Origin: Xanthomarina maritima | Lineage (GTDB): Bacteria > Bacteroidota > Bacteroidia > Flavobacteriales > Flavobacteriaceae | Direction: 5' to 3' | NCBI RefSeq assembly: GCF_008084905.1 | Contig: NZ_VSFC01000052.1 | Coordinates: forward strand, 186,001 to 250,000 | DNA: 64,000 nt | Shown here: positions 418-23,019 of the stretch, one piece after another | Position numbering within the stretch: the first letter of the stretch is position 1 | How the letters are laid out: each line of letters starts with the position of its first letter | Notes under the pieces: model-generated | The model's database searches: none | What the model was told of the DNA's origin: nothing | What the model saw: only the letters and a program-made list of their open reading frames with translations | Position numbers and translations under genes: made by a program

Positions 418-1800
418 ATGAAAACGAAGATTACATTATTAGCTCTTATGCTGTTTTTAGGATTCAATGTCGTTAATGCACAGCAAGACGAAGAATGTAT
501 GACTAATTTGTCAATATTCTCTGAATATGCAAAAGCTAAAAATTATGATGCTGCTTACGATACTTGGATGAAAGTAAGAAAAAAATGTCCTCAGCTTAAC
601 AGAGCCATTTATACTTACGGTGAAGATATTTTAGATGATAAAATTGAAAAATCTTCAGGAGCTGAAAAAACAGCATACATTAACGATTTAATGAAGCTTT
701 GGGAAGAGCGTTCACAATATTTTGCTAGTAAAACACCAAAAGGGGAATATGCAGCAAAAGCATGTCAATTAATGTATGATAATAGAGAGTTGTTAAAGAA
801 AACGGATGAAGAATTATATGCTTGTTTTGATGCAGCTTACAAATCTGATCCAGACACTTTTACTAATCCTAAATCTTTATACACATATTTTTCATTAATG
901 GTTGATTTATATGATGCTGATAAAAAATCTGCTTCAGACTTATTTAATAAATATGATGATGTTGTTGAAAAAGTAGAACAAGAAGTAGGGAACTATTCTG
1001 AGAGTTTAAATAAACTTATTGAAAAAGAAGATGCAGGAACTGCTTTAACAAGTAAAGAAAAAAGCTATAAAAACTATTATGAAAGTTATTTAAAAGCTTA
1101 CGACCAGATTGCTGGAAGTATAGATAGTAAATTAGGTTCAAGAGCCAATTGCGAAAACTTAATTCCATTATATACTAAAGACTTTGAAGCTAATAAAGGC
1201 AATGCTCTTTGGTTACAAAGAGCAGCAGGAAACATGTCTGCTAAAGATTGTACAGACGATCCGTTATTCTTTAAATTAGTTAATGCTTATCATAATTTAA
1301 GTCCTTCAGCTAATTCAGCTTATTATTTAGGAATCTTAAAAGATAAAGAAGGAAAAACTTCTGAAGCTATTAAATTCTACGAACAAGCCATTAGTTTACA
1401 ATCTGATAATTTCAAAAAAGCGAAACTTTACGAAAAAATTGGAGATAAATTAAAAGCCAAAGGAGATTATGGTTCAGCTAGAAATTATTTCAGAAATGCA
1501 TTAAAGTTCAATCCATCTAATGGAAGACCACATTTAAAAATTGCAGATATGTATAACAGAAGTGCAAATAACTGTGGAGATACAAACTTTAATAAGAGAG
1601 CTGTTTTCTGGTTGGCTGCAGATGAAGCAGAAAAAGCAGGTCGTGTAGATCCTACTTTAACAAGTGCAGCAGCCCAAGCAGCAGCTAGTTATAGAGCTAA
1701 AGCTCCTCAAAAATCTGAGATTTTTAGCGAAGGTAATGCTGGACAAAAAATCAATATTGGATGCTGGATTGGAGCTAGCGTTACAGTGCCAAGCTTATAA
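418..1800 (+). CDS. Secreted tetratricopeptide-repeat protein
   Basis: A 460-residue protein with a clear signal peptide (MKTKITLLALMLFLGFNVVNA, cleavage expected before QQDEE), so periplasmic or outer-membrane associated. Helical repeats of TPR type are clearest around residues 295-385 (AYYLGILKDKEGKTSEAIKF and GDYGSARNYFRNALKFNPSN). TPR proteins act as protein-binding scaffolds, and no enzymatic motif is visible. The stop codon overlaps the lptC start by one base (TAATG), which indicates translational coupling. A terminator-like hairpin lies just after the stop, inside the next gene, and may mark the normal end of this transcript. The partner is unknown. Confidence 0.8.
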   Translation: MKTKITLLALMLFLGFNVVNAQQDEECMTNLSIFSEYAKAKNYDAAYDTWMKVRKKCPQLNRAIYTYGEDILDDKIEKSSGAEKTAYINDLMKLWEERSQYFASKTPKGEYAAKACQLMYDNRELLKKTDEELYACFDAAYKSDPDTFTNPKSLYTYFSLMVDLYDADKKSASDLFNKYDDVVEKVEQEVGNYSESLNKLIEKEDAGTALTSKEKSYKNYYESYLKAYDQIAGSIDSKLGSRANCENLIPLYTKDFEANKGNALWLQRAAGNMSAKDCTDDPLFFKLVNAYHNLSPSANSAYYLGILKDKEGKTSEAIKFYEQAISLQSDNFKKAKLYEKIGDKLKAKGDYGSARNYFRNALKFNPSNGRPHLKIADMYNRSANNCGDTNFNKRAVFWLAADEAEKAGRVDPTLTSAAAQAAASYRAKAPQKSEIFSEGNAGQKINIGCWIGASVTVPSL

Positions 1801-2354
1801 TGACAAAAACATATTTACATAATATTTATTACATAGTCACAGCCATTGCTGTGACTATGTTTTTTTCATGTAAAAACAACTTCGAAGAAGTTAAAAAAAT
1901 AGGTGTTTCAGAAAATGCACCCATTGGAATTGCAGAGCATATTGATTTAAAATACACAGATTCTGGTCGCGTAACCGCCAACTTAAAAAGTCCCAAAATG
2001 CTAGATTACTCGAATAGGGATTTTGCATTTAACGAATTTCCTGAAGGTATAGATTTAGATTTATTCGACGAGCAAAACCAAAAAAGTAATGTTATTGCAG
2101 ATTATGCTATTGTTTACGATAAAACAGGGATTATAGACTTACAAGGAAACGTAGTGCTCTCTTCAGCTAATAAAGACACGTTGTTTGCAGAACAATTATA
2201 TTACGATCAAAACAGAGAATGGCTTTACACAAACAATCCTGTTACCTTTAGAACAGGTCAAGATGTTATTAATGGCAAAGGATTCGACTCTGATATAAAA
2301 TTTACAAAAGCTGAAGTTTTAGAAATTGATGGCATCATCACACTTGACGAATAA
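1800..2354 (+). CDS. lptC: LptC-like LPS export lipoprotein
   Basis: A 184-residue protein with a lipoprotein signal whose lipid-attachment residue is probably Cys24 (MFFSC-KNN). The rest is beta-rich and fits the LptC/OstA-like fold: LDLFDEQNQKSNVIADYAIV, then DLQGNVVLSSANKDTLFAEQL and VINGKGFDSD, the usual sequence of LptC periplasmic domains. LptC links the inner-membrane LptBFG transporter to LptA during LPS export. E. coli LptC has a membrane anchor, whereas Bacteroidota members commonly look lipidated, as here. The start overlaps the upstream TPR stop by one base. Codons 11-22 form a perfect terminator-like hairpin, see separate entry. Confidence 0.8.
   Translation: MTKTYLHNIYYIVTAIAVTMFFSCKNNFEEVKKIGVSENAPIGIAEHIDLKYTDSGRVTANLKSPKMLDYSNRDFAFNEFPEGIDLDLFDEQNQKSNVIADYAIVYDKTGIIDLQGNVVLSSANKDTLFAEQLYYDQNREWLYTNNPVTFRTGQDVINGKGFDSDIKFTKAEVLEIDGIITLDE
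1831..1867 (+). terminator. Perfect 13-bp hairpin plus T-tract inside the lptC signal-peptide codons
   Basis: Bases 1831-1843 (ACATAGTCACAGC) pair without mismatch with 1848-1860 around a CATT tetraloop, followed by TTTTTTC. This is the classic shape of an intrinsic terminator. It starts 30 bases after the TPR stop codon, inside lptC. It could end most TPR-gene transcripts and reduce lptC expression. Translating ribosomes starting lptC would disrupt the hairpin, so coupling could control read-through. Confidence 0.7.
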
Positions 2355-2391: not shown

Positions 2392-2586
2392 ATGAAAATA
2401 TTTAAGTTTTTTCAATACGCCTATTTGCTTTTTGCAATTATCTTTTTATATGATGTTATTTCTAAATATATAGAATTTGGTACAATAGAATACACATCGT
2501 TATTATTAGCTGCTGCTGCAGTTTTTATGTTTTTCTTTAGAAAGAGATTCAATAAAAAATTCGAAAATAAAGGAGAAAATAAATAA
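2392..2586 (+). CDS. Small membrane protein, unknown function
   Basis: A 64-residue protein with two hydrophobic segments (about residues 5-24 and 33-48) and a very basic C-terminus (FFRKRFNKKFENKGENK), so probably a two-span inner-membrane protein with its tail in the cytoplasm. It lies 37 bases after lptC and overlaps the next gene by one base (TAATG), so it is probably co-translated with the CorC-type protein. I do not recognise a named family. Confidence 0.65.
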   Translation: MKIFKFFQYAYLLFAIIFLYDVISKYIEFGTIEYTSLLLAAAAVFMFFFRKRFNKKFENKGENK

Positions 2587-3875
2587 TGAACCCAGATGTC
2601 ATTATAATCATAATCTCATTAATCTTATCTGCCTTTTTCTCAGGAATGGAAATTGCATATGTATCTTCAAATAAAATACACATAGAAATTGAGAAAAAGC
2701 AACAAGGAATCCTTGCAAAAATATTAACAAAACTTACAGCTAGACCATCTAAATTTATAGCTACTATGTTAATTGGTAACAATATAGCATTAGTTATTTA
2801 TGGGTTTTTTATGGGAGATTTGTTAGTGGCATGGTTCCAGTCATTCTTACCATCAAGTTCTCAAGCTTTAAATTTTTTATTGGTCGATTTTAGCCTTTTA
2901 ACACAAACCATAATTTCAACCTTAGTAATATTAATAACAGCCGAATTTTTACCAAAAGTATTTTTTCAAATTTATGCGAATTCCCTTTTAAAATTATTAG
3001 CAATTCCAGCTTATATGTTTTACGGGATATTCACTTTTGTCTCAGATTTTGTTATCTGGATTTCAGATTTTGTTCTTAAAAAATTCTTTAAAACAGATGG
3101 AGATCAAATACAACTAGCATTCTCAAAAGTAGAATTAGGTAATTATATTAGTGAACAAATGGAATCTGTTGAAGAAAGCGATGATATAGATACAGAAATT
3201 CAAATCTTTCAAAACGCTTTAGAGTTTTCAGAAGTTAAAGCTAGAGAAGTCATGATACCTAGAACAGAAATTACTGCTGTAGATGTTAATGAATCTTCTA
3301 AAAATTTAAGTGCACTTTTTACCGAAACAGGTTTTTCTAAAATATTAATTTACAAAGATACAATAGACGATATTTTAGGTTATGTGCATTCTTTTGAACT
3401 ATTTAAAAAACCAAAAAATTTAAAATCCATTTTGGTTCAGGTTGAGTTTGTGCCAGAAACCATGTTAATAAAAGACATTTTAAGCATTCTTATCAAAAAA
3501 CGAAAAAGTATTGCCGTTGTTCTAGATGAGTATGGAGGTACTTCAGGAATTGTAACTGTAGAAGATATTGTAGAAGAACTTTTTGGAGAAATTGAAGATG
3601 AGCACGATACAGTGGTTTTAACTGAAGAAAAACTTGAAGAAGATTTGTATAAATTTTCAGCCAGATTAGAAGTAGATTATATAAACGAAACGTTTAAAAT
3701 AAATCTTCCAGAAAGCGAAAACTATGAGACTTTAGGAGGCTTTATTGTAGATTTCACTGAAGAAATTCCTCAAAAAAACGAAATCGTTAACATAGACAGA
3801 TTTCAATTTACCATTCTTGAAGTTTCAACTACCAAAATCGATTTGGTTGAACTTAAAATATTAGGCTCGGACTAA
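2586..3875 (+). CDS. CorC/HlyC-family membrane protein (DUF21-CBS-CBS-CorC_HlyC)
   Basis: A 429-residue protein with the full family architecture: an N-terminal DUF21/CNNM membrane domain with about four hydrophobic spans (residues 1-175, including SAFFSGMEIAYVSSN), a CBS pair (about 215-335, with VMIPRTEITAVD and LDEYGGTSGIVTVEDIVEEL) and a C-terminal CorC_HlyC transporter-associated domain (about 345-425, ETLGGFIVDF). Relatives are implicated in magnesium/cobalt efflux or, as GldE, in gliding. The neighbours here are not gldD-type genes, so I do not call it GldE. It overlaps the preceding small ORF by one base. Confidence 0.85.
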   Translation: MNPDVIIIIISLILSAFFSGMEIAYVSSNKIHIEIEKKQQGILAKILTKLTARPSKFIATMLIGNNIALVIYGFFMGDLLVAWFQSFLPSSSQALNFLLVDFSLLTQTIISTLVILITAEFLPKVFFQIYANSLLKLLAIPAYMFYGIFTFVSDFVIWISDFVLKKFFKTDGDQIQLAFSKVELGNYISEQMESVEESDDIDTEIQIFQNALEFSEVKAREVMIPRTEITAVDVNESSKNLSALFTETGFSKILIYKDTIDDILGYVHSFELFKKPKNLKSILVQVEFVPETMLIKDILSILIKKRKSIAVVLDEYGGTSGIVTVEDIVEELFGEIEDEHDTVVLTEEKLEEDLYKFSARLEVDYINETFKINLPESENYETLGGFIVDFTEEIPQKNEIVNIDRFQFTILEVSTTKIDLVELKILGSD

Positions 3876-21924: not shown

Positions 21925-23019
21925 ATGAGTCAGAATTCAAGCTCATTAAGTCAATTAGCGCTCCAAAAATTTAAACGAGATTTTTGGGGCGTTTTTAGCT
22001 TTTGGTTTATTGTATTAGTAGGTGTTATTTCAGTTTTTGCTTATGCATTTGCTCCAGATAATTCAAAACATGCCAATCAGATGCATTTAGCAATCCATTC
22101 TAAAAAGCCTGGCTTTAAAGTGCAAATGTTAGTTTTACCACCTGCTTTAGAGAACAATCAAAGCTTTTTTGATAAACTCTTTTTTGGAAAGAAACATACA
22201 GAAACAGAAATTCCAATTTCCTCTTACCAGCTTAAAGGCAGCACTTTATATTATACAGAATATGCTTCTGATGGACTTCAAGGAGCTGATAAATCAATAG
22301 ATTTATCCAATTATCAAAAAATAGATTCAAATTCAATAATTCAAGAAAAAACCTATCTTTTCGGTACAGATAAATATGGACGTGATCTATTAAGTAGAAT
22401 TCTTATTGGAGCAAGAATTTCCTTTTTTATTGGTTTTGTAGCTGTTTTTATTTCATTAGTTATAGGCATTTTTATGGGAAGTGTTGCAGGTTATTTTGGA
22501 GGAAAAGTTGATACTTTTATTATGTGGATTATTAACGTGACTTGGTCTATTCCAACATTATTACTTGTTATTGCAATTACATTAGCTTTAGGAAAAGGAT
22601 TCTGGCAAGTGTTTATTGCAGTAGGTTTAACCATGTGGGTTGAAGTTGCCAGAGTTGTTCGAGGGCAAATTATTAGTGTTAAAGAAATGCAATATGTTAC
22701 TGCAGCAAAAGCCTTAGGGTTTAATGATTTTAGAATAATAACCAAACATATATTACCAAATATAATGGCCCCAGTAATTGTAATTTCAGCTGCTAATTTT
22801 GCTGCAGCTATATTAATTGAAAGTGGTTTGAGTTTTTTAGGTATTGGCGCACAACCACCAATGGCAAGTTGGGGAGCAATGATTAAGGATCATTATAACT
22901 ACATCATCTTAGGAAAACCTTATTTAGCCTTAATTCCAGGCTTCTGTATTATGAGTTTGGTAATGGCTTTTATGCTTATTGGTAATGCCTTGCGTGATGC
23001 TTTAGATGTGAAGAGTTAA
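21925..23019 (+). CDS. OppC/DppC-type ABC transporter permease
   Basis: A 364-residue permease. One N-terminal span (about residues 22-45) is followed by an unusually long extracytoplasmic stretch (about 46-140) and then the typical motif FGTDKYGRDLLSRILIGARIS and five more spans. The EAA loop is VKEMQYVTAAKALGFNDFRIITKHILPN. OppC-type permeases pair with OppB and ATPases to import peptides, but no partners are next to it here. It starts 6 bases after the protease gene and may be co-transcribed. Its end overlaps the converging engB by 4 bases. Confidence 0.88.
   Translation: MSQNSSSLSQLALQKFKRDFWGVFSFWFIVLVGVISVFAYAFAPDNSKHANQMHLAIHSKKPGFKVQMLVLPPALENNQSFFDKLFFGKKHTETEIPISSYQLKGSTLYYTEYASDGLQGADKSIDLSNYQKIDSNSIIQEKTYLFGTDKYGRDLLSRILIGARISFFIGFVAVFISLVIGIFMGSVAGYFGGKVDTFIMWIINVTWSIPTLLLVIAITLALGKGFWQVFIAVGLTMWVEVARVVRGQIISVKEMQYVTAAKALGFNDFRIITKHILPNIMAPVIVISAANFAAAILIESGLSFLGIGAQPPMASWGAMIKDHYNYIILGKPYLALIPGFCIMSLVMAFMLIGNALRDALDVKS

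Follow-up and report, generated by a model that had tools for sequence, protein, structure and literature searches.

Does the beginning of a coding sequence also carry a transcription signal? This question is raised by lptC (positions 1800..2354, plus strand) in the window analysed here, a 64,000-nucleotide stretch of the Xanthomarina maritima contig NZ_VSFC01000052.1, where a perfect palindrome followed by a run of thymines lies within the codons of the signal peptide. LptC functions in LPS transport and is essential in model bacteria. The window protein is a lipoprotein with the signal peptide MTKTYLHNIYYIVTAIAVTMFFSC that was identified by its matches to TIGR04409 (E 6e-26) and PF06835 (Pfam LptC, E 1.8e-15), and its closest named homologue is that of Xanthomarina spongicola (92%).

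The TPR gene, lptC and the two genes after it lie on the plus strand. Directly upstream of lptC there is a gene for a TPR-repeat protein (418..1800, identified by Pfam TPR matches), the TAA stop codon of which (1798-1800) overlaps the lptC ATG (1800-1802) within the sequence TAATG (1798..1802). The TPR gene is preceded by the terminal part of a BamG-like gene, truncated by the window edge, which scores 167 bits with the NF053685 model, as compared to a cut-off of 250. Downstream of lptC, a 64-aa ORF (2392..2586) and a gene coding for a CNNM/CorC (GldE-like) protein (2586..3875) follow; their co-transcription with lptC is inferred, and both are possibly controlled by the same hairpin. Most TPR proteins encoded upstream of lptC end with a tail of the CW[IV]GxSVxVPxL type (1741-1800 in the window), to which no function is assigned.

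Geometry, folding and rarity of the hairpin

The 5′ arm of the stem (1831..1843, lptC codons 11-15) and the 3′ arm (1848..1860, lptC codons 17-21) form 13 Watson-Crick pairs, six of them G-C, around a CATT loop (1844..1847). Both arms are supported by the sequence, the fold and covariation, and the loop by the sequence and the fold. A T7 tract (1860..1866), whose first T is also the last paired base, covers the Phe-Phe codons in front of the codon for the lipobox Cys (1869..1871, codon 24 of lptC), the TG of which is invariant in a 43-genus alignment anchored there. A sequence-only reading of the locus had described a perfect 13-bp stem, a CATT loop and a 7-base T tract located 30 nt after the TPR stop, all of which is borne out by the sequence. 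Its placement of the element in codons 11-22 holds for the stem, which spans codons 11-21, but not for the T run, which ends one codon later, in codon 23. The same reading was correct in that the hairpin region encodes the hydrophobic core of the lipoprotein signal peptide, which is IVTAIAVTMFF. The folding energy, whose calculation it had proposed as a check, is −20.1 kcal/mol for positions 1831-1867 (z −8.3), and none of 200 shuffled sequences folded as well.

An intrinsic terminator is defined by shape as a stable GC-containing hairpin with a T run directly after it, and a 13-bp stem with a T7 tract meets this definition. When 390 kb of the same contig were scanned, terminator-like hairpins of −10 kcal/mol or lower were found in the first 120 nt of five out of 357 mechanically called ORF starts, lptC counted, and the lptC hairpin (−20.0 kcal/mol) was the strongest at any of these starts. 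The same rule retrieved one of 357 mid-gene windows and 62 of 357 windows placed after stop codons. As can be seen, by its shape the lptC hairpin resembles the post-gene terminators of this genome, but it is placed unusually. No Rfam family matched the first 6 kb of the window above the gathering score; at the hairpin site, the only match was to sau-66, with 27.2 bits as compared to a gathering score of 80, and on the minus strand.

Another ORF of the window (21925-23019) starts with a terminator-like hairpin of −18.2 kcal/mol within its first 68 nt, which may be due to chance or may be a similar case. By eye only, and without a family search, its product resembles an ABC permease.

Distribution of the element and its displaced forms

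The lptC loci of other bacteria were collected in two sets, whose species overlap. Set 1 consisted of 67 loci found with the window protein, 66 of which had upstream sequence; L015, which begins mid-gene, was dropped. A hairpin of −10 kcal/mol or lower followed by a T tract is present near the lptC start in all 66 (median −19.3 kcal/mol). This set is biased, since one of the six search peptides, MFFSCKNN, favours the same signal-peptide end. Set 2 was based on TIGR04409 and consisted of 67 Flavobacteriaceae loci, 59 from 60 genomes of the family and eight more, with genome G055 left out for want of a true lptC match. A hairpin was found no more than 60 nt before the lipobox Cys in 63 of these 67 loci, as compared to one of 67 when the same rule was applied to a control window 90-150 nt into the same genes. 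Two of the four exceptions, L078 and L083, have a hairpin further upstream, and the other two, L096 and L097, have none. Family-wide conservation of the structure is a direct observation.

The element is dispensable in some lineages. It is lacking in L096 and L097 and impaired in L080, where the T tract is broken, and in L132, where a 2-nt gap lies ahead of the T run; in the latter two loci the peptides are similar and the element is poorer. The two loci without a hairpin come from small genomes (1.9 and 1.6 Mb, respectively), but L073, L090, L098 and L133 have retained it in genomes of 1.7-1.9 Mb. Stricter rules scored L080 and L132 (and, with one rule, also L108) as lacking the hairpin; since the stems are present in all three, and only the T tract is broken, offset or shorter, they are counted as present under the looser 60-nt rule. 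The absence of the hairpin from L013 and from Bizionia (L017, L022, L066 and L067), suggested by a scan for perfect stems, was overturned by mismatch-tolerant folding. The spacing of the element from the TPR gene is nearly fixed: among the loci from the 60 family genomes of set 2, 48 of 54 hairpins start 28-38 nt downstream of the TPR stop, and in L098 the distance is 48 nt; for five loci (L078, L143, L144, L147 and L151), the TPR stop was wrongly assigned by the automatic procedure.

Outside Flavobacteriaceae, the hairpin was detected in 12 of 26 loci from the rest of the order, nine of 42 from the rest of the class and four of 57 from the rest of the phylum, with zero, one and two detections, respectively, in control windows. 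These tallies cover part of the genomes drawn (26 of 53, 42 of 66 and 57 of 75); those for the class and the phylum refer to the best-scoring loci, and that for the order to the best-scoring loci plus loci of our own choice. Some of the hairpins outside the family are weak or occupy other positions, and a phylum-wide element is not claimed. A covariance-model search of 21 genomes placed its top match at lptC in 14 of them, including 12 of the 13 genomes from the family (all but G004); matches elsewhere than lptC reach an E value of 9e-5.

Out of 55 hairpins of the family, 54 are located inside the open lptC frame, and the exception, L078, carries its hairpin in a uORF. This locus is one of four distinct sequences from the genus of the window (L005, which is the same as L078 and comes from Xanthomarina gelatinilytica; L007/L288; L008/L290; and L289; their common descent was not tested) in which lptC has a new, palindrome-free signal peptide. 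In all four, the old start persists ahead of lptC, after the TPR gene, as a uORF coding for 22-30 aa, whose ATG still overlaps the TPR stop and whose frame crosses the hairpin and the T tract. The distance from the uORF stop to the ATG of the new lptC start is 1 nt in three cases and 22 nt in the fourth (by eye), and ribosomes could still be led through the hairpin. It appears that here a leader peptide has arisen from a signal peptide. In L083 (genome G006), the old FFSC now reads FFSF, and a second signal peptide comes next, in frame. Thus, in the displaced cases and in L083 the hairpin has been retained without the job of encoding a working signal peptide.

The TPR gene is not always found next to lptC. 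In four of the five genomes of a genus that by our inference is probably Flavobacterium (L104, L106, L108 and L117), there is no TPR gene directly upstream, and the hairpin in lptC is kept; at the position of the TPR end, these loci have a tail that by eye resembles the end of the BamG-like gene of the window. The TPR tail is present in the fifth genome, L121. Since the hairpin occurs without a TPR gene directly upstream, termination of TPR gene transcription cannot be its sole role, which points to control of lptC and not only to the ending of the TPR message.

Selection at the RNA level

Covariation was analysed in 43 genera, using a gap-free alignment on the lipobox Cys that was derived from 54 in-frame loci and contained 645 pair cells. 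Eleven of the 54 loci were left out, ten with a different hairpin axis and L083, in which the Cys is lost. Standard pairs make up 94.0% of the 645 cells, as compared to a mean of 73.5% for shuffled sequences and 28-57% for slid structures. A change on both sides is seen in 157 cells, versus 12-32 in slid structures. Pairs with both-side changes number 13 of 15 versus 6-10 in slid structures, a value reached by one of 500 shuffles, though this measure is weak when taken alone. When the changes were mapped onto a mature-protein tree, double changes in which the pair was kept were located on 61 branches, in 13 pairs, as compared to 1-4 branches for slid partners. The shuffle control disregards relatedness, whereas the tree count and the slid control do not. 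Compensatory evolution is thus observed, and the stem sequence as such has been swapped between lineages (CATAGTCACAGC, CATTGCCATGG and GCGTGATGATAC types), with the peptide changing alongside.

Among the 645 cells, those that do not contain a Watson-Crick pair comprise 47 G·U wobbles and 39 mismatches of other kinds, among which T·T and C·T predominate; A·C does not occur. Since wobble is restricted in this way to one strand, selection points to the transcribed (sense) RNA, with the reservation that base composition was not modelled.

The contribution of codon choice was assessed with a synonymous null, in which the codons of 54 loci were drawn 300 times from each gene's own usage, the T tract being left untouched. 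The mean of the null is −5.2 kcal/mol, as compared to −19.4 kcal/mol observed; the observed fold was matched by none of the 300 draws in 35 loci, by at most 1% of draws in 48 loci and by more than 5% in none. In the T tracts of 53 loci, TTT accounts for 86 of 87 Phe codons (P 3e-7 against the 81% of gene bodies), and CTT for 15 of 16 Leu codons (P 1e-9 against 21.5%). The 53 loci had been preselected for a T run; by eye, the excluded L080, L096, L097 and L132 add no TTC. Judging by this codon bias, the T tract is maintained through codon choice.

On comparative evidence, RNA-level selection on the hairpin is established, beyond what the window alone could show. That a perfect stem in a functional signal peptide implies selection on both levels had been suggested by the sequence-only reading, and its suggestion is upheld by the pairing kept with changed bases in homologous lptC loci (94% of cells, 61 branches with double changes). 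As to homologues with the same peptide and no stem, which would have refuted it, the loci with a similar peptide and a poorer element are few (L080 and L132), and L096 and L097 lack the hairpin. Coding and RNA constraints overlap completely here, and they can be separated by comparison, residues changing together in such a way that the stem survives.

Proposed attenuation of lptC and alternative explanations

The reading that we prefer, with a probability of about 0.78, is that the hairpin and the T tract are a selected sense-strand intrinsic terminator that attenuates lptC; termination is inferred here, as there are no RNA data. The sequence-only reading had likewise envisaged a terminator for the TPR message that would damp lptC too, or that coupled translation could open, and the comparative results support its proposal, with termination and opening by ribosomes as inferred parts. 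The position is that expected of an attenuator, the hairpin being located after the lptC start codon and within any full-gene mRNA (the promoter is unmapped). Any transcript begun downstream of the hairpin would lack both the lptC ATG at 1800 and the signal-peptide codons, so lptC needs readthrough. An ORF overlaps the terminator, as a leader-peptide attenuator requires. One can expect that RNA polymerase coming from the TPR gene would often halt at 1860-1867 and that only the polymerases that read through would make lptC and the subsequent genes. A ribosome that finishes at the TPR stop, 30 nt short of the stem, would leave the hairpin free, and the hairpin would be opened by a ribosome that restarts on the overlapping lptC ATG and proceeds into the stem codons; we propose that translation of lptC would therefore be a natural antitermination signal. 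Basal termination would be strong, with readthrough occurring upon quick reinitiation on lptC. Attenuation would probably extend to the genes after lptC, though termination itself is not shown. The efficiency of termination in vivo, the role of the ribosome and any physiological signal are likewise inferred only, and the choice between a role of the ribosome and a plain partial terminator is undecided.

The latter is the same explanation without its last step: an unconditional partial terminator would merely hold expression of the upstream genes and that of lptC at a constant ratio, and ribosomes would play no part. It is a serious possibility, which we place somewhat below even odds. Partial internal terminators are familiar in E. 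coli, where rpsU-dnaG and rplL-rpoB are examples, and the distance from the TPR stop (28-38 nt in 48 of 54 loci) would also fit. In addition, a review, in the part of it available (PMC7858274), quotes an efficiency of nearly 100% for terminators that lie no more than 100 nt into an ORF, dropping with distance as ribosomes catch up, so translation may not open the lptC hairpin. However, a plain terminator could be hosted by untranslated sequence, whereas the lptC frame or a substitute uORF crosses the hairpin in those loci of the family that were inspected in this respect, and the tight spacing from uORF to lptC is held in three of the four displaced cases.

An RNA element that does not terminate, and instead slows the ribosome in the signal peptide for membrane targeting or shields the mRNA end from decay, would account for the fact that in 63 of 67 loci the hairpin overlaps or adjoins the hydrophobic core. 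We consider it improbable, since neither pausing nor protection from decay needs the T tract that codon choice keeps after the stem, and since the hairpin is kept apart from a working signal peptide in the displaced cases of the genus Xanthomarina and in L083. It is far less credible still that the palindrome is a DNA-binding site of a regulator. The inverted repeat is exact in the window, but the stem sequence diverges greatly among lineages with the pairing kept, the T tract is conserved, and the occurrence of G·U and never A·C wobbles would be meaningless for DNA. Finally, signal-peptide ends of the FFSC type naturally give T runs in AT-rich codons; that the whole hairpin is a by-product of coding for a hydrophobic signal peptide in AT-rich DNA can nonetheless be practically dismissed in view of the synonymous null, the covariation, the rarity of such hairpins among 357 ORF starts and the survival of the element outside a working signal peptide.

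The preferred reading, attenuation by a sense-strand terminator, can be taken further. The LptC signal peptide may be its own leader peptide, whose translation or membrane capture decides whether polymerase continues past the hairpin into lptC and the later genes. LPS-transport capacity would then be set by a ribosome-controlled switch in coding sequence, which joint selection on protein and RNA would have preserved in Flavobacteriaceae and in part of the order. We put this extension forward only tentatively and regard it as rather unlikely to hold in full.

No published report of the lptC hairpin element was found in the literature searched, which was limited to a collection of open-access papers. 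The partial internal operon terminators of E. coli rpsU-dnaG and rplL-rpoB are similar in that they are located between cotranscribed genes, and like them the lptC hairpin would lower expression of the later genes; they are intergenic, whereas the lptC hairpin is within coding sequence, with both levels selected. E. coli pyrBI is reportedly controlled by a leader-peptide attenuator, in which an intrinsic terminator is likewise overlapped by a translated frame and translation through the terminator leads to readthrough. An overlap of this kind is also found in S. gallolyticus pil1, where, according to the accessible portion of PMC3894217, the terminator stays on when the leader stops 39 bp ahead of it and is switched off by longer leaders that stop inside or near it. 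As far as that portion describes it, this geometry is matched here by the TPR stop together with the lptC frame. Unlike in both systems, the frame overlapping the lptC element is normally not a separate leader but the signal peptide of the regulated gene itself, and conservation of the element extends over a bacterial family. What is new as compared to known attenuators is that the gene's own signal peptide would serve as the leader.

In E. coli, RNA 3′ ends have been described that form prematurely in 5′ UTRs and within ORFs, such as that of ispU with a 6-bp stem and eight U (PMC7815308, seen in part); they share intrinsic termination at or near the gene start with the proposed lptC terminator. 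The ispU 3′ end lies in a 5′ UTR, and in the available part of the same source no family-wide covarying terminator within signal-peptide codons is described. Structured RNAs and predicted attenuation are known from the same bacterial family, namely the candidates for attenuation by amino-acid leader peptides and the Flavo-1 motif of Flavobacterium psychrophilum (PMC9723704, in excerpt). Unlike the lptC hairpin, these are, to the extent that the excerpt covers them, located upstream of operons, and the word lptC is absent from the main text of that paper.

If the attenuator reading is true, the hairpin is a built-in limit on LptC, whose gene is close to a BamG-like outer-membrane assembly gene. 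This suggests that lptC is held on a built-in brake, with two messages kept in the same letters. The lptC hairpin also cautions that RNA function can act on the sequence of signal peptides. To our knowledge, transcription termination has been little studied in these bacteria, and the hairpin offers a natural test for ribosomes following polymerase in Bacteroidota.

Sequences around the hairpin were also inspected for alternative pairing. In the window, the lowest-energy fold of positions 1780-1880 retains the terminator stem, and no competing helix is present; this result refers to the window sequence only and not to homologues. TTACAT near codons 6-7, noticed by eye as a possible antiterminator, was dropped as it is absent from many distant genera. 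Upstream of the hairpin, a conserved A is found at −50 and −48 nt from the lipobox Cys codon (1.47 and 1.11 bits, respectively, in 42 genera, one locus lacking the flank being excluded); stop and start codons aside, these are the best-conserved upstream sites.
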